From contig CALSOU010000003.1 of assembly GCA_943788055.1 (NCBI GenBank), positions 1-64,000 on the forward strand: a DNA stretch of 64,000 nt, read 5' to 3'. Shown piece after piece: positions 8,715-30,174 of the stretch; position 1 is the stretch's first letter; every line of letters starts with the position of its first letter. Position numbers and translations under genes: made by a program. Under the pieces are notes generated by a model. The model had not been told where the DNA came from. It saw only the letters and a list, made by a program, of their open reading frames with translations, and made no database searches. The DNA comes from an uncultured Saprospiraceae bacterium (GTDB lineage Bacteria; Bacteroidota; Bacteroidia; Chitinophagales; Saprospiraceae).

Positions 8715-10004
8715 GTGAAATTATATAGTACTAACGATAAAACGAATATAGTCAATTTAGAAAAGGCAACATTGCGATCTTTGCCTGATGACAATGGTCT
8801 ATACCTTCCTTTGTCAATTCCAGAACTAGAAAAGGACTTTATTAATAATCTCAGCAATTATTCTTTTCCAGAAATTGCTTTTGAAATAAGTCGTAAAATA
8901 ATCGGTACAGAGATCCCTACAAATATTTTAGAGCAGATATGCTTTAATGCAATTAATTTCCCTGCTCCTCTTCTTCAGCTATCTAATAATATTTACACAC
9001 ATGAATTATTTCATGGACCAAGTCTCGCATTCAAGGATTTTGGTGCTCGATTCATGGCAGAGTTAATGTCTTACTTTGTAAAAGAGAAAGAACAAAAGTT
9101 AACTATTCTGGTCGCGACTAGCGGAGATACTGGCGGAGCAGTAGCTGCTGGATTTCACAATATTCCAAATATTGAAGTAATTATTTTATATCCATCTGGG
9201 AAGGTAAGTCCAATACAAGAAAAGCAATTAACCACCTGGGGAGATAACATTCATGCAATTGAATGGGTAGGAACTTTTGACGATTGTCAAGCAGTCGTTA
9301 AAAAGACATTCTTAGATAAAGGCTTGATAAGTGAATTTAATCTCAGTTCTGCTAATAGTATAAATATTGCACGGCTTATTCCACAGACATTCTACTATTT
9401 TGAAGCGATCAAACACTTAGATGTAAATAAAGCTATCACCATTAGTGTACCTAGTGGAAATTTGGGTAATATCACAGCAGCTAGTTTGGCGCGTCATATG
9501 GGACTGCCAATTACTAATCTGATAGCTGCACATAATAGTAATTCTGCTGTATTTGAATATTACAATAATCGCTCTTACCTTCCAAAGAATTCGATATCAA
9601 CAATGAGTAATGCTATGGATGTTGGAAACCCCAGTAATTTTCCTCGCTATTTGGAACTTTATGAGTCCGACTATGAAACTTTAATACGAAATACAGAAGC
9701 ATTCATAATCAGCGATAACAAAACGAAGGAAAGCCTTCTTGAATTATACGAACAGTTTAACTATATCTCTGAACCACACGCCGCAGTAGCATATGCTGCT
9801 CTTAAGAAATCCAAAACTTTCCATATAGGTCAACAGGTTTTTCTAGGTACAGCACATCCTGCGAAATTCCAAGAATTAGTCCAATCAATTCTGCCTGTTA
9901 AAATAGAATCACCACAACCCCTCAGTAGTCTTGAAAACCACATTCAAAACAAAATCAGGTTAGCGAGTTATGACGCATTTAAAAAATGGATGCTAAGTAG
10001 GTGA
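8715..10004 (+). CDS. thrC: Threonine synthase
   Basis: ThrC converts O-phosphohomoserine to threonine with pyridoxal phosphate. The 429-residue product shows the PLP-lysine region HGPSLAFKDFGARF, the phosphate loop ATSGDTGGAVAAGF, SANSINIARLIPQ and the conserved SNAMDVGNPSNFPR. Length fits the short bacterial class. The start is GTG (GTGAAATTATAT), since the frame begins directly with the family N-terminus LYSTNDKTN. No other threonine gene (thrA, thrB) adjoins; Bacteroidota usually have thrABC together, so isolation here is unusual. Confidence 0.95.
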   Translation: MKLYSTNDKTNIVNLEKATLRSLPDDNGLYLPLSIPELEKDFINNLSNYSFPEIAFEISRKIIGTEIPTNILEQICFNAINFPAPLLQLSNNIYTHELFHGPSLAFKDFGARFMAELMSYFVKEKEQKLTILVATSGDTGGAVAAGFHNIPNIEVIILYPSGKVSPIQEKQLTTWGDNIHAIEWVGTFDDCQAVVKKTFLDKGLISEFNLSSANSINIARLIPQTFYYFEAIKHLDVNKAITISVPSGNLGNITAASLARHMGLPITNLIAAHNSNSAVFEYYNNRSYLPKNSISTMSNAMDVGNPSNFPRYLELYESDYETLIRNTEAFIISDNKTKESLLELYEQFNYISEPHAAVAYAALKKSKTFHIGQQVFLGTAHPAKFQELVQSILPVKIESPQPLSSLENHIQNKIRLASYDAFKKWMLSR

Positions 10005-10024
10005 TTTAGTTGATGAATATCCAA

Positions 10025-10040
10025 TGTTCCACGTGGAACA
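10025..10040. other. parS centromere site 1
   Basis: A perfect 16-bp palindrome TGTTCCACGTGGAACA, which is the canonical ParB-binding parS type. It lies 20 bp after thrC in a 455-bp non-coding gap whose remaining sequence is AT-rich and shows no gene. A second identical copy is 211 bp downstream. parS sites nucleate ParB and load SMC near the chromosome origin; the DnaA-box region starts 4 kb away. Confidence 0.9.
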
Positions 10041-10235
10041 ATGAATTGCATACTAGATTAAATCTTCAAATCAGAGATTTATCTAAGTCATTTCTAGAGC
10101 AAATTCTGTTAATAGTCTACATAAAGCAACTAAAAAAGCAGACTTCTATGGATCAGACCCTTGAAATTATTTAACCTAAATAAGTCTATGTATCTCGCAA
10201 TTTCACACCATTTAGCACTCTCTTGAAAGATTTTG

Positions 10236-10251
10236 TGTTCCACGTGGAACA
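10236..10251. other. parS centromere site 2
   Basis: A second perfect copy of TGTTCCACGTGGAACA in the same thrC-peptidase gap. Two identical 16-bp palindromes in 230 bp cannot be chance. parA and parB are not in the window. Confidence 0.9.
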
Positions 10252-10459
10252 TTTTTAGTAAAATGTCAAAACTACGTGTTCATACTAATGTTGAAATTCT
10301 CTTATTTATAGTATAAAATATTATAAATCAACACTTTATAAATAAAATTACTGCGTTTATTAGCCATTTTTTTAGATAATTACCAATTTTATCATCTTTA
10401 CAGCCAATTTTGCGTTTATATGATTTACTACTTATCTACTTACTTAAAATACAACATAC

Positions 10460-12766
10460 ATGCGGTTATTAGTTACATTACTATTGTGTCTTCCTAGCCT
10501 ATTGCTAGTTTCTCAAAAACAAGAGCAAATAGCTAAGTTTCAACAGTTGGGTTCTGAACTTCCTACACCCAACACATATCGGACAGCTTCAGGAGCGCCA
10601 GGTCCAGAATACTGGCAACAAAGAGCTGACTATAAAATGGATATTCGTCTAGATGATGAGACTCAACGAATCTATGGTACAGAAACAATTACTTACTTTA
10701 ATCAATCACCAAACCCTCTAGAGTACCTTTGGCTGCAGCTTGATCAGAACATGCGCGCGAACGATTCCGATACTTACTTAATTGGAACATCTGATGTGAA
10801 TCAACGTATGACAATTGATCAACTCAAGAGATTGGACCCAACATTCGATGGAGGCTTCAAACTAGATTATGTGCATGATGCTCAAGGTAAAGATCTTTCG
10901 CATTTTATTGAGAAAACGATGATGCGAATTAATCTTCCTAAGGTACTTCAATCAGGTGAACAATTTACTTTCAAAATCAAATGGTGGTACAATATCAATG
11001 ATCGAATGGAAATTGGAGGACGTTCTGGTTACGAATATTTTGAAGAGAATGATAACTATCTATACACAATTGCTCAGTTCTTTCCTAGAATGTGCGTTTA
11101 TGACGATGTTGAAGGATGGCAGAATAAGCAGTTTTTAGGTAGGGGAGAGTTTGCACTTGCTTTTGGAAATTACGAAGTTGATATTACTGTGCCTGCAGAT
11201 CATCTAGTTGCAGCAACAGGATCACTACAAAATGAATCAGAGGTATTGACAAAAGCTCAACAAAAAAGATTTGATGAAGCTAGAAAAGCATTTGATCAAC
11301 CTGTAATAATTGCTACGCAAGAAGAAGCTGAAAAACGTGAGAAAAGTAAATCTAAGAAAAGTAAAACGTGGAAATTTAAAGCTGAGATGGTTCGCGATTT
11401 CGCTTTCGCCAGTTCTAGGAAATTCATTTGGGATGCAATGGCAACTGATATAAATGGTAAAACGATCATGGCTATGTCTATGTATCCAAAAGAAGGTAAT
11501 CCACTTTGGGAGCAATATTCTACTAAAGCTGTTACACACACACTAAATTGGTATTCCCATTATACAATAGATTATACATATCCAGTAGCCTGGTCTATTA
11601 ATGCCAAGTCAATCGGTATGGAGTATCCTATGATTTGTTTCAATTTCGGAAGACCGGAAAAAGATGGTACTTACTCTCCACGTACTAAGTATGGTATGAT
11701 AGGTGTAATAATACACGAAGTTGGTCACAACTTTTTTCCTATGATTATTAATAGTGACGAAAGACAATGGACATGGATGGATGAAGGTCTCAATTCTTTC
11801 GTACAGTTTATGACTGAACAACAATGGGAACGTGATTATCCATCAAGAAGAGGAGAGGCAAAAAATATCGTTCGATACATGTCTAGTGACCAAGAATCTA
11901 TGGTTCCTATCATGACCAATAGCGAATCTATTCTACAATTTGGAAATAATGCATATGGAAAACCAGCTACAGCTCTTAATATCCTTCGTGAAACAGTAAT
12001 GGGTCGAGAAGCATTCGACTACGCATTTAAGAAATACTGCGAGCGATGGGCATTTAAGCATCCTACACCAGCTGACTTTTTTAGAACCATGGAAGACGCA
12101 TCAGCAATAGATTTAGATTGGTTTTGGCGAGGATGGTTTTATTCAACAGTTCCTGTAGATATAGCTTTGTCGGAAGTAAATTCATTTAAGCTTGACTCTG
12201 GAAATCCGATGATTGAAAAAGCAAAGGATAAAAAGAAAAGAGATGAAGGACCTAGAACAATCTCTCAGATTAGAAATGATAAAGAAATCAAACAGACCTA
12301 CTCTGAAATAGATCCAACGATTCTTGATTTCTATAATAGCTACGATCCTCTGGACGCTACTGAAATAGATAAGAAGAAATATGAGAAATACTATGCTAGC
12401 CTTTCTGATAATGAAAAGGAATTTCTAAATGCTGGTTATAATTTCTATGAGTTAAGTTTTACAAACGAAGGTGGACTAATCATGCCTGTTATCTTCCAAT
12501 TTCAATATGAAGACGGGACTACCGAAGACGTGCGTATTCCTGCTGAGATCTGGAGAAAAGGAAGCACAACAGTTACGAAAACTTTCAAAAGAATGAAGAA
12601 AGTTGAAAGTATAATACTTGATCCATACCTTGAAACTGCTGATATAGATCGATCAAATAACTACTTCCCACCACGTGAAGAAGTTGATCGTTTTGATTTA
12701 TTCAAGAGAAATAGAAGAGATAGAAGTAATCCTATGCAAAATGCTAATAAAACAATCAAGCCCTGA
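10460..12766 (+). CDS. M1-family zinc aminopeptidase, exported
   Basis: A 768-residue secreted metallopeptidase with a signal peptide (about residues 1-18). The gluzincin core is HEVGHNFFPMIIN (zinc ligands His419, His423) followed by the third ligand in WTWMDEGLNSF. The substrate-binding GxMEN motif appears as SIGMEYPM. The N-terminal beta domain starts with YKMDIRLDDETQRIYGTETI, as usual in M1. The C-terminal part has an unstructured lysine-rich stretch (about residues 590-620). It likely trims peptides in the periplasm. The gene sits between the parS sites and oriC and ends in a hairpin terminator. Confidence 0.92.
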   Translation: MRLLVTLLLCLPSLLLVSQKQEQIAKFQQLGSELPTPNTYRTASGAPGPEYWQQRADYKMDIRLDDETQRIYGTETITYFNQSPNPLEYLWLQLDQNMRANDSDTYLIGTSDVNQRMTIDQLKRLDPTFDGGFKLDYVHDAQGKDLSHFIEKTMMRINLPKVLQSGEQFTFKIKWWYNINDRMEIGGRSGYEYFEENDNYLYTIAQFFPRMCVYDDVEGWQNKQFLGRGEFALAFGNYEVDITVPADHLVAATGSLQNESEVLTKAQQKRFDEARKAFDQPVIIATQEEAEKREKSKSKKSKTWKFKAEMVRDFAFASSRKFIWDAMATDINGKTIMAMSMYPKEGNPLWEQYSTKAVTHTLNWYSHYTIDYTYPVAWSINAKSIGMEYPMICFNFGRPEKDGTYSPRTKYGMIGVIIHEVGHNFFPMIINSDERQWTWMDEGLNSFVQFMTEQQWERDYPSRRGEAKNIVRYMSSDQESMVPIMTNSESILQFGNNAYGKPATALNILRETVMGREAFDYAFKKYCERWAFKHPTPADFFRTMEDASAIDLDWFWRGWFYSTVPVDIALSEVNSFKLDSGNPMIEKAKDKKKRDEGPRTISQIRNDKEIKQTYSEIDPTILDFYNSYDPLDATEIDKKKYEKYYASLSDNEKEFLNAGYNFYELSFTNEGGLIMPVIFQFQYEDGTTEDVRIPAEIWRKGSTTVTKTFKRMKKVESIILDPYLETADIDRSNNYFPPREEVDRFDLFKRNRRDRSNPMQNANKTIKP

Positions 12767-12824
12767 CTTCGACTTCGCTTAGTCAGCAATACTCTTAATT
12801 GACTTTAGTTATCTCTGAAATGAT

Positions 12825-12863
12825 AAAAGCGAAATTTGGTGTGAACTGGGTTTCGCTTTTTTT
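12825..12863 (+). terminator. Intrinsic terminator after the M1 peptidase
   Basis: The arms AAAAGCGAAA (12825-12834) and TTTCGCTTTT (12851-12860) pair perfectly around a 16-nt loop and are followed by a T run. It lies 60 bp after the peptidase stop on the plus strand. Confidence 0.8.
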
Positions 12864-12971
12864 ATGTTTAATACAAATCACAACGATTATAACTTTTTTA
12901 ACATTTTGGAACTTAGCCTGACATATAAAGTAAGTTATACTATATAATCGCTATCAATAGTAATAGGGTGC

Positions 12972-12997
12972 AGTGATGAAATCTTCGCAGCATCACT
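12972..12997. terminator. Second hairpin in the peptidase-COX15 gap
   Basis: AGTGATG (12972-12978) pairs with CATCACT (12991-12997), followed by AATTATTTTTATTT. The run is not pure T, so it may be a weak terminator or a backup for the one upstream. Confidence 0.4.
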
Positions 12998-13116
12998 AAT
13001 TATTTTTATTTATAGTTTTCTATACATAAAAACAAGAACTACTTTTACAACTAATGAGGTAAACGCACTAACATATAATATATCAATATAATTATTAGAT
13101 TATGAATATCTTATAC

Positions 13117-14100
13117 CTACTCTAACCTAAGTTTAAAGAAAATAGCTCCTATAAACAACATACTTCCCACAACTAGGTGTACGGGCTGGGCAATAGCTGG
13201 CATATCCAAATAATTCATAACAATACCAGCAAGCATTGCTACAATAGTGCAGATCATAATAAAATTCATTAATAATCGCAGCTCAGTAAAGTCTTTGGAT
13301 TTAAACCACAGATAACCTGACACAATCAGAATTAACCAACTGAAACTTCTGTGTATATAGAATGGTATACCAAGAGCACCTATCCACAAGTCACGTTGTT
13401 GATAAGATAGATTCTTTGAAATAATATCGACTTCTTCACGAACTTGTGTTCCGAGAACTATTTGAATAAGAACAGCTCCGATGAGCACCCACGCAGCTTG
13501 TTTCACATAAGACGGAACCATCACCTTCTCGTAACGAATACGCCTAATAATGTACAGAGGAATTGCGGCTATTAACAAAGCTATCAACATATGTATAGTG
13601 ATCTTCACTACAGATAAATTGGCGTCAACAACAAGTTTTCCCATCCACCCTTGAAAGCCAGTCAATAATACTAATCCTCCAATAAGTATGGGTATCCACT
13701 TCTCAGTTACTCGGTACTTAATAATAGACCATACAAAATAGATAAAAATAAAGATTCCGAGTATTGCTCCCAACAGTCGATTTATATACTCAATCCATGT
13801 ATGGTAAACATTGAAACTATGATCTATATCTTGCTTACTTAAGTACTTCTCAAAATCAGTAGGTAGCTGACTAACATCGGTAGGAGGTACCCACATACCA
13901 AAACATCGTGGCCAATCAGGACATCCCATACCACTCTGTGTCATACGCACAATCCCTCCAGCAGCAATAACCAAAAATACCCAGATCAGAACAAACCAAC
14001 TGTAACGCACAAATGCACTACTTCCGCTCATTTTATCTTTCTTTAATTGCTTGTCTTTTTCCAACATTTCTAATTGATTATCGATACAAAGGTAAATCAT
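13117..14100 (-). CDS. ctaA: Heme A synthase, COX15/CtaA type
   Basis: The enzyme oxidises the C8 methyl of heme O to make heme A for aa3-type oxidases. The 327-residue protein has about eight membrane helices and the four family histidines: YHTWIEYINRLLG, ITIHMLIALL, YIHRSFSW and QPVHLVVGSM. The cysteine pair region RMTQSGMGCPDWPRCFG is in the first periplasmic loop. The frame opens at 14100 but Met at 14067 or 14031 (MSGSSAFVRYSW) may be the real start. The 5' end of the gene abuts the candidate oriC, so transcription runs away from the origin. Confidence 0.92.
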   Translation of the reverse strand: MIYLCIDNQLEMLEKDKQLKKDKMSGSSAFVRYSWFVLIWVFLVIAAGGIVRMTQSGMGCPDWPRCFGMWVPPTDVSQLPTDFEKYLSKQDIDHSFNVYHTWIEYINRLLGAILGIFIFIYFVWSIIKYRVTEKWIPILIGGLVLLTGFQGWMGKLVVDANLSVVKITIHMLIALLIAAIPLYIIRRIRYEKVMVPSYVKQAAWVLIGAVLIQIVLGTQVREEVDIISKNLSYQQRDLWIGALGIPFYIHRSFSWLILIVSGYLWFKSKDFTELRLLMNFIMICTIVAMLAGIVMNYLDMPAIAQPVHLVVGSMLFIGAIFFKLRLE

Positions 14101-14771
14101 TTTAAACTTGATGATCTATCTCAAAAGCTTCTCAACTTATCCACCTTATGATAATATTGATAATTAATTTTTAAAATATAAAAAGAATCATATATCATTA
14201 TTAGCCCTGTGGATATGTGTAAAACTTTACCTTTAAAACAGTTGTTTTTCAGTCTTGTTGATAGCTCAGAGAATTATTCACAATACTTATTGAAAAGATG
14301 TACTTTATTCCACAGCTTAGTTATTCCACATTTTTTTGTTGATAATTTTATACACTAAAACATATATTACATTAATAAGTAATTAAATTATTTATAATCA
14401 ACTTTTTATATATTAATATTATAATTATAAAATGTGTATTTAGTATAATATATGTGGATAACCTGTGGAAGATATTAGTATTTAGAATTAATTTTTAGAG
14501 GTTTATGCACATATGTGTAAATCTATGCTGATATTATTAATCATGATAAGTATTTTCAAAACTTTGTTTATAAGCTATGTCATTTTATATGAGTTTATTC
14601 AGCTTCACCTTCTTGTTCTCCACATTGTTATGATCAAGTGATCTATTTGTGGATATCTTCTTGGTTTCCCACAAATTATTACGAAAATCATGTGGAAAAA
14701 TACTTCATTATACTATTGATTTTATGATATTTACACTTTATAGATTTATTTAATGTGTAAAAACTTATTTT
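14101..14771. other. Candidate chromosome replication origin (oriC)
   Basis: A 671-bp non-coding, very AT-rich stretch packed with DnaA boxes. Perfect TTWTNCACA matches are at 14216-14224 (-), 14274-14282 (+), 14453-14461 (-, TTATCCACA), 14503-14511 (+), 14691-14699 (-) and 14754-14762 (-). One-mismatch boxes are at 14137-14145, 14208-14216, 14348-14356, 14514-14522, 14616-14624 and 14648-14656. An almost GC-free block lies at about 14338-14450. Genes diverge from it on both sides (COX15 minus, SRAP plus), and two parS sites lie 4 kb to the left. dnaA is not adjacent, which is common in Bacteroidota. Confidence 0.85.
14338..14450. other. AT-rich DNA-unwinding-element candidate in oriC
   Basis: This stretch is nearly devoid of G and C (for example TAATTAAATTATTTATAATC and TATTAATATTATAATTATAA) and is directly flanked by the perfect DnaA box at 14453. 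That is the arrangement expected of a DNA-unwinding element. Confidence 0.6.
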
Positions 14772-15449
14772 ATGCGCTTTAAACTATCCCTAGCAGCATC
14801 TCGTGAGAAAGTAACTCAAGAATGTGGTAAAGTTACCTTTCCAAAAAGCTTTGGACATCAATTCCAGATTAATCCTACAGAGAAAGTCTATTGCTTACTA
14901 GATGTTAATCCTTCTCGTATGTATACGATTGAGTGGGGTTTAATTCCACATTGGGCAAAACGTCTAAACAACAGGGGTAATCTTACAGAGATAAACATAG
15001 AGGATATAGCCTCCAAACCTTCATCACGTATTCCATTTCGTATTAAACGAGGAATTATTCTTACCGATGCTATATATTATATTCATAAGAAAGGTTTAGA
15101 ATATACACCTTATCGCATCGAACGAAAAGATGGAAAATTAATGAGATTTGCTTGTCTTTGGGATGAATGGCGTAAAGAAGAAAAGTACTTGGCTACGACA
15201 GCATTGGTTACAAAGAAGGTGCAGGGTTTTATCACTGATGAATTCCCTATTGAATTTACTGCAGAGGAATCTGTCAGTTGGATGGAAGAGCAGAATTTAG
15301 CAGCTGCAGAACAGATGCTAGGTAAGAGATTTTATCCTGAAGTTTACCAGTACTTTAAGGTTACTAATCGCATTCTAGATGTTACTTACAACGAAAAGGA
15401 TTTAACTGTTCCGGTACCTGAGGAAATTAATCTTTTTAGTTTCCTTTAA
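14772..15449 (+). CDS. SRAP-family (YedK/HMCES-like) protein with degenerate active site
   Basis: SRAP proteins shield abasic sites in single-stranded DNA by a covalent bond to Cys2. The 225-residue product aligns with SRAP along its length: YTIEWGLIPHWAK, a DNA-binding loop region at ASKPSSRIPFRIKRG, YTPYRIERKDGKLMRFACLW and FTAEESVSWM. However, the residue after Met is Arg (ATG CGC) where the family has Cys, the GFYEW-type glutamate is replaced (TDAIYYI), and the IHxRMP-type histidine is Thr (FITDEFPIEF). It should therefore not form the thiazolidine link, but may still bind DNA. It abuts oriC. There is no alternative ATG-TGC start in frame. Confidence 0.8.
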   Translation: MRFKLSLAASREKVTQECGKVTFPKSFGHQFQINPTEKVYCLLDVNPSRMYTIEWGLIPHWAKRLNNRGNLTEINIEDIASKPSSRIPFRIKRGIILTDAIYYIHKKGLEYTPYRIERKDGKLMRFACLWDEWRKEEKYLATTALVTKKVQGFITDEFPIEFTAEESVSWMEEQNLAAAEQMLGKRFYPEVYQYFKVTNRILDVTYNEKDLTVPVPEEINLFSFL

Positions 15450-15461
15450 TATATATCTAGT

Positions 15462-15914
15462 ATGAAAGTTGTACTTCAACGTGTCCGATCTTCATCTGTT
15501 TTAATTGATAAGTCGGAACGCCGTTCAATAGGAGAAGGAATGACTGTTTTACTAGGAATCACTGAAGGAGATAGTCAAGAAGATATTGATTGGTTGGTAC
15601 GCAAGATGATCAATATACGGATATATCTTGATGATGTAGGAGTAATGAATCGTTCGATTTTAGAAACTAGAGGATCTTTTCTTGTGATATCGCAGTTTAC
15701 TTTGCATGCATCCACTAAAAAAGGAAATCGTCCTTCATATATTCGTTCGGCAGCACCTAGTATCTCAAAACCACTTTATGAAGCTTTTTTGCAGACGCTA
15801 GAAAAGGCGAGCGGACTCGAGGTCCAAAAAGGTGAGTTTGGAGCAGATATGCTTGTTGAAATTCAGAACGACGGACCCATCACTATTATCATGGATACAG
15901 AAGATAAAAAATAG
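15462..15914 (+). CDS. dtd: D-aminoacyl-tRNA deacylase
   Basis: DTD removes D-amino acids (and glycine misloaded on tRNA-Ala) from tRNA. The 150-residue product has both signature motifs: SQFTL (in VISQFTLHASTKKG) and the C-terminal GPITIIMDT, a variant of the GP-containing catalytic motif. It starts 12 bp after the SRAP gene and is followed by the MazG-like gene after 13 bp, so the three likely form one operon reading away from oriC. Confidence 0.95.
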   Translation: MKVVLQRVRSSSVLIDKSERRSIGEGMTVLLGITEGDSQEDIDWLVRKMINIRIYLDDVGVMNRSILETRGSFLVISQFTLHASTKKGNRPSYIRSAAPSISKPLYEAFLQTLEKASGLEVQKGEFGADMLVEIQNDGPITIIMDTEDKK

Positions 15915-28008: not shown

Positions 28009-30174
28009 ATGATTCACCCATATTTAAGATATTCAATATTACTGTTTTGTTTTCTTGGTGGTTGTTTGTCAAGCACAGCTCAGACAGTAGATCACTGGGA
28101 GACTATCATCTATAATGATGATGAATGGTATTATGCGATAGGATCAAGTAGCATTCCATTGACATGGAAAGATCAGGAATTTGATGTTAGTCAATGGGAA
28201 ACCGGACAAGGTGGTTTCGGATACGGCGATGATTATAACACTGTGTTGGAAGATGTTTCATCTCTCTTCATTCGAAAGGAGTTCACCGTTGATGACAAGT
28301 CCTTAATCAGTGCATTGCTCTTACATGCAGATTACGATGACGGCTTTGTGGCATATTTAAATGGCACTGAGATTGCTCGAATGAACTTGGGAATCGCGGG
28401 CACACAACCCGATTATGATGATACCGCAAATAATACAATTGAACCAAAATTAGCTTATAGCCAAGTGCCAGATGGCTTTCAAATTGATTTAGATCACTTG
28501 AATGAAGGAAGCAACGTTTTGGCGATTCAGATTCATAATCGGACCGGAAATTCATCAGACTTGACGAGTAACGTCTTCCTTTCTGCTGGAATTAGCGACG
28601 ACTCTGTTGTTTACGGAGATCCACCACTTTGGTTCAGTTCTTCTTTGTTTCAATCTACGCTACCAATTATTAAGATATCTACCGAGTCAGGGGAGGAGAT
28701 TATGGATGAACCTCGCATCACCGCCCAAATGGGGATAATATTTAATGGTAAAGGAAATACAAATTCAGATTTTGATCCATTCAATGATTATGATGGTCAA
28801 ATTGCAATTGAACTTCGAGGCACTTCTTCTTTGGCTTTTGACAAAAAAGGCTATGGTTTCGAAACGCGCAATGATGATGGGTCGAATAACAATGTTTCAT
28901 TGATTGGAATGCCAGAGGAGAATGATTGGATTTTAAATGGGCCATATTCAGATAAATCTCTGTTGAGGAACGTCCTTACCTATCACCTAGGAAGCTTATC
29001 TGGTAGATACGCGCCTCGGACTAAGCTTTGTGAACTATTTATCAATAATGAATATCTAGGGGTATACGTGTTGATGGAGAAAATAAAGCAAGACAAGAAT
29101 CGTGTTGATATTGCCAAATTACGAGAAGAAGACAATACAGGAGATGAGCTGACAGGTGGATATATTATCAAGGTCGATCGAAACGATCAGAATATTCCCG
29201 GAGCAGGGTGGTACTCAAATTATCCAGATAACAAGTTTATTGCTTATGTCGATCCCAAAGATGACCAGATTACAAGCTTACAACAGGATTATATTCAAGA
29301 ATATATGAATAATTTTGAATCAGCGATGTGGGGTAATAACTATGAAGGGGTTTATCAAGACTATGTGGATGAGCATTCTTTCGTAGATTATTTTTTGGTA
29401 ACAGAGGTAGGAAAACAAGTTGACGCTTTTAAGCTTAGCTTTTATTTATATAAGGATAAAAATAGTAATGGAGGCAAGCTAAACTTTGGTCCTTTGTGGG
29501 ATTTTAATCTTGGCTATGGAAACTTTGATTTTGGCTACTCTCCTGATCCGCAAGGCTGGTCATATGAATTCCCCGATGAAGGTAGTTGGCATCCTTTTTG
29601 GGCTAAGCGATTAGCTGAAATTGCAAACATTCAAAATCTTAGCGATTGTAGATGGAAAGAGCTACGAGAAGGGCCCTTTCAGACGGATAGTCTGATGCAG
29701 TTTATTGATGAGAAGGTTTCTTTAATGGGACCTGCCGCGGATCGCAACTTTGACCGATGGCAGATTCTCGGTGAATATGTTTGGCCGAATAATTACATAG
29801 GAGAAACATATGTGGACGAGGTTGACTTCTTGAAAAATTGGCTTCAAGAAAGGTTAGTTTGGATGGACCAAAATATGCAGGGAAACTGTGATGAATATAT
29901 TCCTGTTGCTCTAGAAGAAAGCAGAGAAGTGTTTGCCGAAGTATTTCCTAATCCTGCGAGTGGACATTTTAATGTTCTGTGGAGCAGCGACGAAAGTGCT
30001 GAACTCGAAATATATGACTTAAGAAGAAGCCTTGTACATAGTCGAAAAATGGAAACGAAAGGAAATCATCGGATCAATCTTGATCAAATCGAACGCGGAA
30101 TGTACGTTTTGGTTTTTAAATCGATGAGTGATCAAAGGATTCTTTTAACTGAGAAATTAGTAGTTATAAAGTGA
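28009..30174 (+). CDS. CotH-kinase family protein with T9SS sorting domain
   Basis: 721 residues. Signal peptide to about residue 25 (SSTAQT). Residues 30-195 form a galactose-binding-like domain. The CotH core spans about residues 215-570: AIELRGTSSLAFDKKGYGFE, NDWILNGPYSDKSLLRNVL, YLGVYVLMEKIKQDKNRVDI and LNFGPLWDFNLGYGNFDFG. The last 80 residues are a type-A secretion domain (VFPNPASGHFNVLW; GMYVLVFKS). CotH proteins are secretory kinases that phosphorylate proteins on Ser or Thr. Export by T9SS puts this one on the cell surface. Confidence 0.9.
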   Translation: MIHPYLRYSILLFCFLGGCLSSTAQTVDHWETIIYNDDEWYYAIGSSSIPLTWKDQEFDVSQWETGQGGFGYGDDYNTVLEDVSSLFIRKEFTVDDKSLISALLLHADYDDGFVAYLNGTEIARMNLGIAGTQPDYDDTANNTIEPKLAYSQVPDGFQIDLDHLNEGSNVLAIQIHNRTGNSSDLTSNVFLSAGISDDSVVYGDPPLWFSSSLFQSTLPIIKISTESGEEIMDEPRITAQMGIIFNGKGNTNSDFDPFNDYDGQIAIELRGTSSLAFDKKGYGFETRNDDGSNNNVSLIGMPEENDWILNGPYSDKSLLRNVLTYHLGSLSGRYAPRTKLCELFINNEYLGVYVLMEKIKQDKNRVDIAKLREEDNTGDELTGGYIIKVDRNDQNIPGAGWYSNYPDNKFIAYVDPKDDQITSLQQDYIQEYMNNFESAMWGNNYEGVYQDYVDEHSFVDYFLVTEVGKQVDAFKLSFYLYKDKNSNGGKLNFGPLWDFNLGYGNFDFGYSPDPQGWSYEFPDEGSWHPFWAKRLAEIANIQNLSDCRWKELREGPFQTDSLMQFIDEKVSLMGPAADRNFDRWQILGEYVWPNNYIGETYVDEVDFLKNWLQERLVWMDQNMQGNCDEYIPVALEESREVFAEVFPNPASGHFNVLWSSDESAELEIYDLRRSLVHSRKMETKGNHRINLDQIERGMYVLVFKSMSDQRILLTEKLVVIK

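Follow-up and report, generated by a model that had tools for sequence, protein, structure and literature searches.

A probable chromosomal replication origin with a conserved DnaA-trio-like module between the divergent COX15 and SRAP genes of a Saprospiraceae bacterium

The stretch of DNA analysed here, called the window below, consists of the first 64 kb of a 216-kb contig (C3) from a draft assembly of 2,995,115 bases in 13 contigs, 96.85% complete. It contains a 671-bp intergenic gap (14101–14771) flanked by two genes that point away from each other, as the sequence-only reading had described: COX15/CtaA, for haem A synthase, on the minus strand (13117–14100), and a gene for an SRAP protein on the plus strand (14772–15449). 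Three neighbouring genes, all on the plus strand, were used as synteny markers, namely those for the D-Tyr-tRNA deacylase DTD (15462–15914), an M1-family peptidase (10460–12766) and the threonine synthase thrC (8715–10004). The order thrC–parS–M1–COX15–gap–SRAP–DTD was found whole or partly in relatives. Within the family, COX15 is divergent from SRAP or from DTD, M1 and thrC lie beyond COX15, and parS sites are placed in or near the thrC–M1 region, the arrangement being kept whole or in part. No match to an Rfam RNA family was obtained at gathering score across 9900–15500. Elsewhere in the window, positions 28009–30174 encode a 721-aa protein with a C-terminal type IX secretion sorting domain, which fits Bacteroidota.

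The gap is rich in DnaA boxes. All six perfect boxes announced by the sequence-only reading were recovered as matches to TTWTNCACA: TTTTACACA twice on the minus strand (14216–14224 and 14754–14762), the consensus box TTATCCACA (14453–14461) and TTTTCCACA (14691–14699), also on the minus strand, and TTATTCACA (14274–14282) and TTATGCACA (14503–14511) on the plus strand. In 2000 dinucleotide shuffles of the gap, the mean was 0.18 boxes and the maximum 3, and the statement that such a cluster is too dense for chance is therefore justified. Degenerate boxes are present as well, but their number, first given as six, is a question of definition, because one-mismatch boxes amount to 8 when compared to TTATCCACA (shuffle mean 0.37) and to 13 when compared to TTWTNCACA (shuffle mean 3.4, maximum 12 in 300 shuffles). 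Degenerate forms include TTATCCACC (14137–14145, plus strand), TCTTCCACA (14464–14472, minus strand, in tandem with the 14453 box), and the one-mismatch boxes TTCTCCACA (14616–14624, plus strand) and ATATCCACA (14648–14656, minus strand). A box-like motif, TTATTCCACA, was said to occur twice; both plus-strand copies are there (14305–14314 and 14321–14330), but a third one lies at 9376. Over the whole genome, TTWTNCACA is found 318 times and TTATNCACA 119 times. Among 100 listed of the 318 TTWTNCACA places, the next densest spot has 3 boxes in 671 bp (C1:234661–235294), and among 100 listed of the 119 TTATNCACA places, no spot other than the gap has three of them within 671 bp.

The gap also stands out by its composition, since no other 671 bp of the 216-kb contig are as A/T-rich as those starting at 14093, which coincide with the gap to within a few bases. 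Inside it, a block at 14338–14450 had been called almost GC-free. This wording is loose, with 12 G/C in 113 positions, but the block does overlap the A/T-richest 113 bp of the contig (from 14330). We considered it as the unwinding site and set this candidate aside: A/T-richest as it is, it has no equivalent at a fixed place in the gaps of relatives, as judged by eye. It is kept as a possible second easily melted stretch. The cumulative GC skew of the contig has its absolute minimum at base 4; beyond 8 kb, the minimum falls at 14,402, inside the gap and 14 units higher, and the curve then rises overall to a maximum at 207,020. With only 14 kb of contig to the left of the gap, this profile is not decisive.

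Two parS sites, reported from the sequence alone as lying 4 kb from the gap, are indeed found in the thrC–M1 intergenic region, as two copies of TGTTCCACGTGGAACA (10025–10040 and 10236–10251). They are the only places in the assembly that match TGTTCCACGTGGAACA with at most one mismatch. This sequence differs from TGTTTCACGTGAAACA at 2 of 16 positions, and TGTTTCACGTGAAACA itself has no occurrence in the assembly. A single parB match was obtained in the genome, at C10:72668. The dnaA gene is located on yet another contig (C12:235586), which agrees with the initial remark that it is not next to the gap. An origin placed beside dnaA was rejected: the 20-kb stretch that includes this gene contains no TTWTNCACA.

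A feature overlooked by the sequence-only reading, and the best conserved of the gap, lies close to COX15, at 14158–14224. Read on the plus strand, it starts with an A/T-rich tract (14158–14201, 91% A+T), the predicted site of first unwinding, which lies to the left of four DnaA-trio-like triplets, TAT-CAT-TAT-TAG (14193–14204), and overlaps them. The triplets follow the pattern NAN. After a CCC spacer (14205–14207) come two boxes on the minus strand, the trio-proximal ATATCCACA (14208–14216; TGTGGATAT in the reading direction of the module) and, 8 nt from it, TTTTACACA (14216–14224; TGTGTAAAA in that direction). The conserved, putative unwinding module is at 14158–14224, and not in the A/T block at 14338–14450 that had been marked first. 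Its layout fits the basal unwinding system (BUS) of Bacillus subtilis, composed of a DnaA box, a spacer and DnaA-trios, and predicted in 1755 of 2070 origins in the account given in PMC8287927. The search rule stated there takes a DnaA box with at most 2 mismatches, a spacer of 0–16 nt and at least 3 NAN trios, 3'-GAT-5' (TAG) being the commonest box-proximal trio. The window has a box with 1 mismatch, a spacer of 3 nt and four trios, with TAG in the proximal position. Applied to the gap, the published loose rule gave 13 matches, against 1.98 in shuffles; with a strict form (four trios, TAG), there were 2 in the gap, where shuffles gave 0.04, and the 64-kb window as a whole had 4.

To follow this module in relatives, 18 gaps were aligned, our own and 17 others. 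Of these, 17 are gaps with a divergent COX15, and the last one, from G009, has neither SRAP nor DTD as a neighbour of COX15 and was added for the boxes that surround this gene; any other COX15 with different neighbours stayed out of the alignment. Placed side by side, the gaps share a single alignable block, situated on the COX15 side and made of an A/T-rich tract, NAN triplets, exactly 3 nt, a TGT, and a second element 8 nt further on. The block aligns in 18 of 18 gaps, and the 3-nt spacer is kept in all of them. In the alignment, an A/T-rich stretch lies to the left of the trios, followed in some relatives by a short run of C. The triplet adjacent to the spacer is TAG in 12 gaps, CAG in 3, TAA in 2 and CAT in 1. 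The proximal element takes the form TGTTART in 11 of the 18 gaps, at 3–5 mismatches from TTATCCACA. On the side of COX15, the module lies 55–211 nt inside the gap, with either SRAP or DTD as the other neighbour; a MAG contig (L003) combines the DTD–COX15 arrangement with the module. In three gaps (G003, G010 and G083), a single seed string put the module in the wrong place, and these were re-anchored by hand. The leave-one-out test with a weight matrix starts from these hand-chosen anchors, each of which then came out as the top-scoring position of its gap; the module was found in 18 of 18 gaps, at a score reached by 0 of 300 shuffles in each. With our own gap left out, the matrix scored 25.5 at 14190 of the contig, the next best value in the 216 kb being 7.6. 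In 5 of the 18 gaps (G079, G019, G052, G053 and L003), an inverted TGTTART was also seen at offset 68–69 to the right of the first TGT element.

Boxes were counted in the 17 gaps in which COX15 is divergent from SRAP or DTD (our own and 16 relatives). Together they hold 50 boxes, against 2.16 from shuffles, an enrichment diluted by one gap (L172, from G052) that ran to DTD and so took in the SRAP gene. Taken one by one, 11 of the 17 counts were reached by at most 2 of 200 shuffles, and the other 6, among them that of G053 with no box, by at least 13 of 200. Two relatives, G051 (G051:C134:528666-529266, L191) and G053 (L173:296-841), have the trio module in a gap devoid of TTWTNCACA, and would therefore be missed if boxes alone were counted; the wording of the box may differ there.

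The 18 module blocks were next turned into a 60-position profile, R1, searched with a cut-off of E<=0.01, the E-values being rough. One row of the profile, the MAG L003, might also be among the searched genomes. R1 matched 75 of 118 genomes, our own included, at a single site in 71 of these 75, and found no match at this cut-off in the remaining 43. Matches were obtained in 54 of 72 genomes of the family and in 21 of 46 from the other families of the order. As 17 of the 75 matched genomes had served to build the profile, the yield among held-out genomes was 58 of 101. In a search over the class at E<=0.001, 21 of 295 genomes matched, namely our own, 5 of the 6 shown for family f20, and 15 from outside the order. 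With so few matches, R1 is not a class-wide signature, and its reach is roughly that of the order.

Distances between R1 and parS were computed for the 54 of 57 parS genomes whose places are listed, using only the best R1 match of each genome. Among the held-out genomes with both an R1 match and a listed parS (n = 29), the two were on the same contig in 17, always within 27.1 kb and with a median of 7.2 kb. They were on different contigs in the other 12, of which 9 are assemblies of more than 100 contigs. In G074, R1 and parS are 7.05 kb apart on a 4.35-Mb contig. Also in this genome, a stretch of about 400 bp (G074:C1:2044974-2045370, L098:12974-13370) holds ten TTWTNCACA boxes with two parS sites in between; this cluster is 7 kb from the profile match, whose own 3-kb locus (L211) holds 15 boxes, so that two dense clusters lie close together.

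GC skew was then examined in six relatives, G079, G051, G072, G019, G074 and G115, and a minimum at the homologous site was seen in two of them. The first is G079, a closed genome in a single contig of 7,507,556 bases, where the minimum over a contiguous 114 kb falls at 2,349,196, inside the homologous COX15–SRAP gap (2,348,803–2,349,405), which contains five boxes. Of 21 stretches of 20 kb sampled along this contig, all 8 up to 2.28 Mb have a negative skew, all 11 between 2.354 and 6.02 Mb a positive one, and the 2 beyond a negative one again. The second is G051, with the minimum of 100 kb at 528,911, about 100 bp from the profile match (528,782–528,833); this genome is outside the profile-building set, and its 100-kb stretch, taken around DTD, was chosen before the profile was built. 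In G072, the minimum was 14 kb from the profile match, on a flat trough. The minimum of 210 kb in G019 was at 376,207, about 76 kb away from its gap. In G115, which belongs to another family, the switch of sign falls at some point between about 2.9 and 3.71 Mb, no sample taken from 3.71 to 4.92 Mb is negative, and the lowest skew over 160 kb is reached 59 kb away from the profile match. G074, used as a skew control, switches sign many times in the sampled skew.

Boxes were also found in excess within COX15 itself. After removal of repeats and of gene matches weaker than 1e-40, there were 34 distinct reading frames of COX15, some of them partial, with 22 boxes in total, against 4.4 after synonymous shuffling. 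The same comparison gave no excess for thrC (0 against 0.9), M1 (1 against 2.5) or SRAP (1 against 1.8). The DTD coding sequences showed a smaller excess (8 boxes against 2.9 in 37 reading frames). In G004, G019, G023 and G079, two boxes in tandem are found after the stop codon of COX15; the loci with such a pair are L087, L089, L091 and L147. In G072 (G072:C67:168935-169463, L196), which is outside the 34-frame count, the two boxes after the stop codon are 12 nt apart, with others further into the gene at 333 and 175 nt. These spacings are repeated in L203 (from G055) and L220 (from G048), where COX15 itself is unannotated. Such an organisation suggests that some relatives may have a bipartite origin around COX15, with a second cluster in the 3' half of the gene and a pair at its stop codon. 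In the window, the COX15 gene (L007) has 0 boxes in its coding sequence and 0 in the 150 nt that follow, and the bipartite form is absent.

We conclude that the COX15–SRAP gap is most likely the chromosomal replication origin (oriC), equipped with a putative BUS and located away from dnaA, with a probability of about 95%. The original proposal of an origin at this place gains support from the box cluster, the rarity of parS, the skew minima of G079 and G051, and the conserved module. An oriC is favoured because it is the only reading we found that explains jointly the box cluster, the sole two parS of the assembly 4 kb off, the skew minima in these two relatives and the DnaA-trio-like module. 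From these computed properties, together with the gene order, we infer how the origin would function. DnaA would occupy the boxes from 14208 to 14762, the pair of them at 14208–14224 would steer a DnaA filament leftward, toward COX15, onto the single-stranded trios at 14193–14204, and the A/T tract at about 14158–14201 would open; the helicase would then be loaded, and two forks would depart in both directions. Segregation of the copied origins would fall to ParB, loaded at the two parS sites 4 kb from the gap.

A more specific view can be proposed, in which the opening module is particular to the order: trios, a fixed 3-nt gap, and TGTTART replacing a good proximal box in 11 of 18 gaps would be read by a distinct mode of DnaA or by a different protein. 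One subset would in addition have a bipartite origin, with the second cluster in the 3' half of COX15 and fixed spacings of 12, about 333 and 175 nt. We regard this combined proposal as tentative and rather doubtful. Some TGTTART sites could count as weak boxes, because their 3–5 mismatches compare with up to 4 permitted by the published rule.

Clusters of DnaA boxes are able to titrate DnaA. The gap might accordingly be a secondary DnaA-binding cluster, titrating DnaA or regulating genes, near the true origin and not at it. That such clusters exist near these origins is illustrated by G074, with its second, ten-box cluster 7 kb from the profile match. We nevertheless hold this very improbable, as G079 has its local skew minimum inside the homologous gap and G051 has its own about 100 bp from the module, and titration would not explain a trio module in the G051 and G053 gaps, which lack TTWTNCACA. 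Still harder to sustain is the idea that the gap is a promoter-operator region shared by COX15 and SRAP, whose box-like words would come from A/T richness or serve as regulator sites. The genes are divergent, the gap is short, and SRAP belongs to a family linked to DNA damage, for which a regulation by DnaA or SOS is conceivable. Boxes nevertheless exceed what dinucleotide shuffles produce, the module stays 55–211 nt in on the COX15 side whether SRAP or DTD is opposite, profile matches lie near parS in other families (e.g. G027, G109, G033 and G091), and in G115 COX15 is 33 kb from the profile match. Finally, secondary replicons carry box clusters and parS as well, but the origin of a plasmid, a phage or an integrated element is hardly credible here, given ordinary chromosomal flanking genes in an order kept across genera, a module that is single in 71 of 75 matched genomes, and its place at the skew switch of a single 7.5-Mb contig in G079.

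In a search of literature titles and abstract openings, outside supplementary tables and DoriC, we found none that concerns a COX15-located origin for this lineage, and novelty is not claimed. The novelty of the window's own origin is modest, and what specialists may wish to pursue is the module shared across the order, with its TGTTART form, together with the bipartite variant. Origins situated away from dnaA are easily overlooked in draft genomes. Where genomes of the order are unfinished, R1 could be of help in locating the origin, for instance when growth rates are estimated from read depth. The genomes in which it finds a single site include G051, with no TTWTNCACA in the gap and a skew minimum about 100 bp away. 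The module gives exact bases for the study of origin opening by DnaA in Bacteroidota, and TGTTART is a possible lineage-specific variation of the trio mechanism.

How does this locus compare with known systems? In chromosomal parABS systems, 16-bp palindromic parS sites lie close to oriC. The window likewise has 16-bp palindromic parS near the proposed oriC, and the genome a single parB match; it differs in that there are only two parS in the genome, both in one intergenic gap, and parB is on another contig of the draft. B. subtilis and Helicobacter pylori have bipartite origins flanking dnaA. A subset of relatives shares with them two box clusters flanking one gene, but this gene is COX15, the second cluster is partly inside the coding sequence, and the window's origin is without a second cluster. 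With the Ori-Finder predictions kept in DoriC, as these resources are presented in PMC6323995 and PMC10225481, the kinds of evidence are the same, namely skew, box cluster, indicator genes and trios. The neighbours are different, being COX15, SRAP and DTD in the window, with dnaA on another contig. A further likeness is to the BUS as outlined in PMC8287927: a box within 16 nt of at least 3 NAN triplets, TAG next to the box, boxes in tandem, and an A/T tract past the trios. In our case dnaA is not adjacent, and 11 of the 18 gaps have TGTTART as their proximal element, where the published rule permits at most 4 mismatches in the weaker box of the pair. The distance from the trios to the first TGT element is always 3 nt (18 of 18 gaps), and the second element comes just 8 nt further on.
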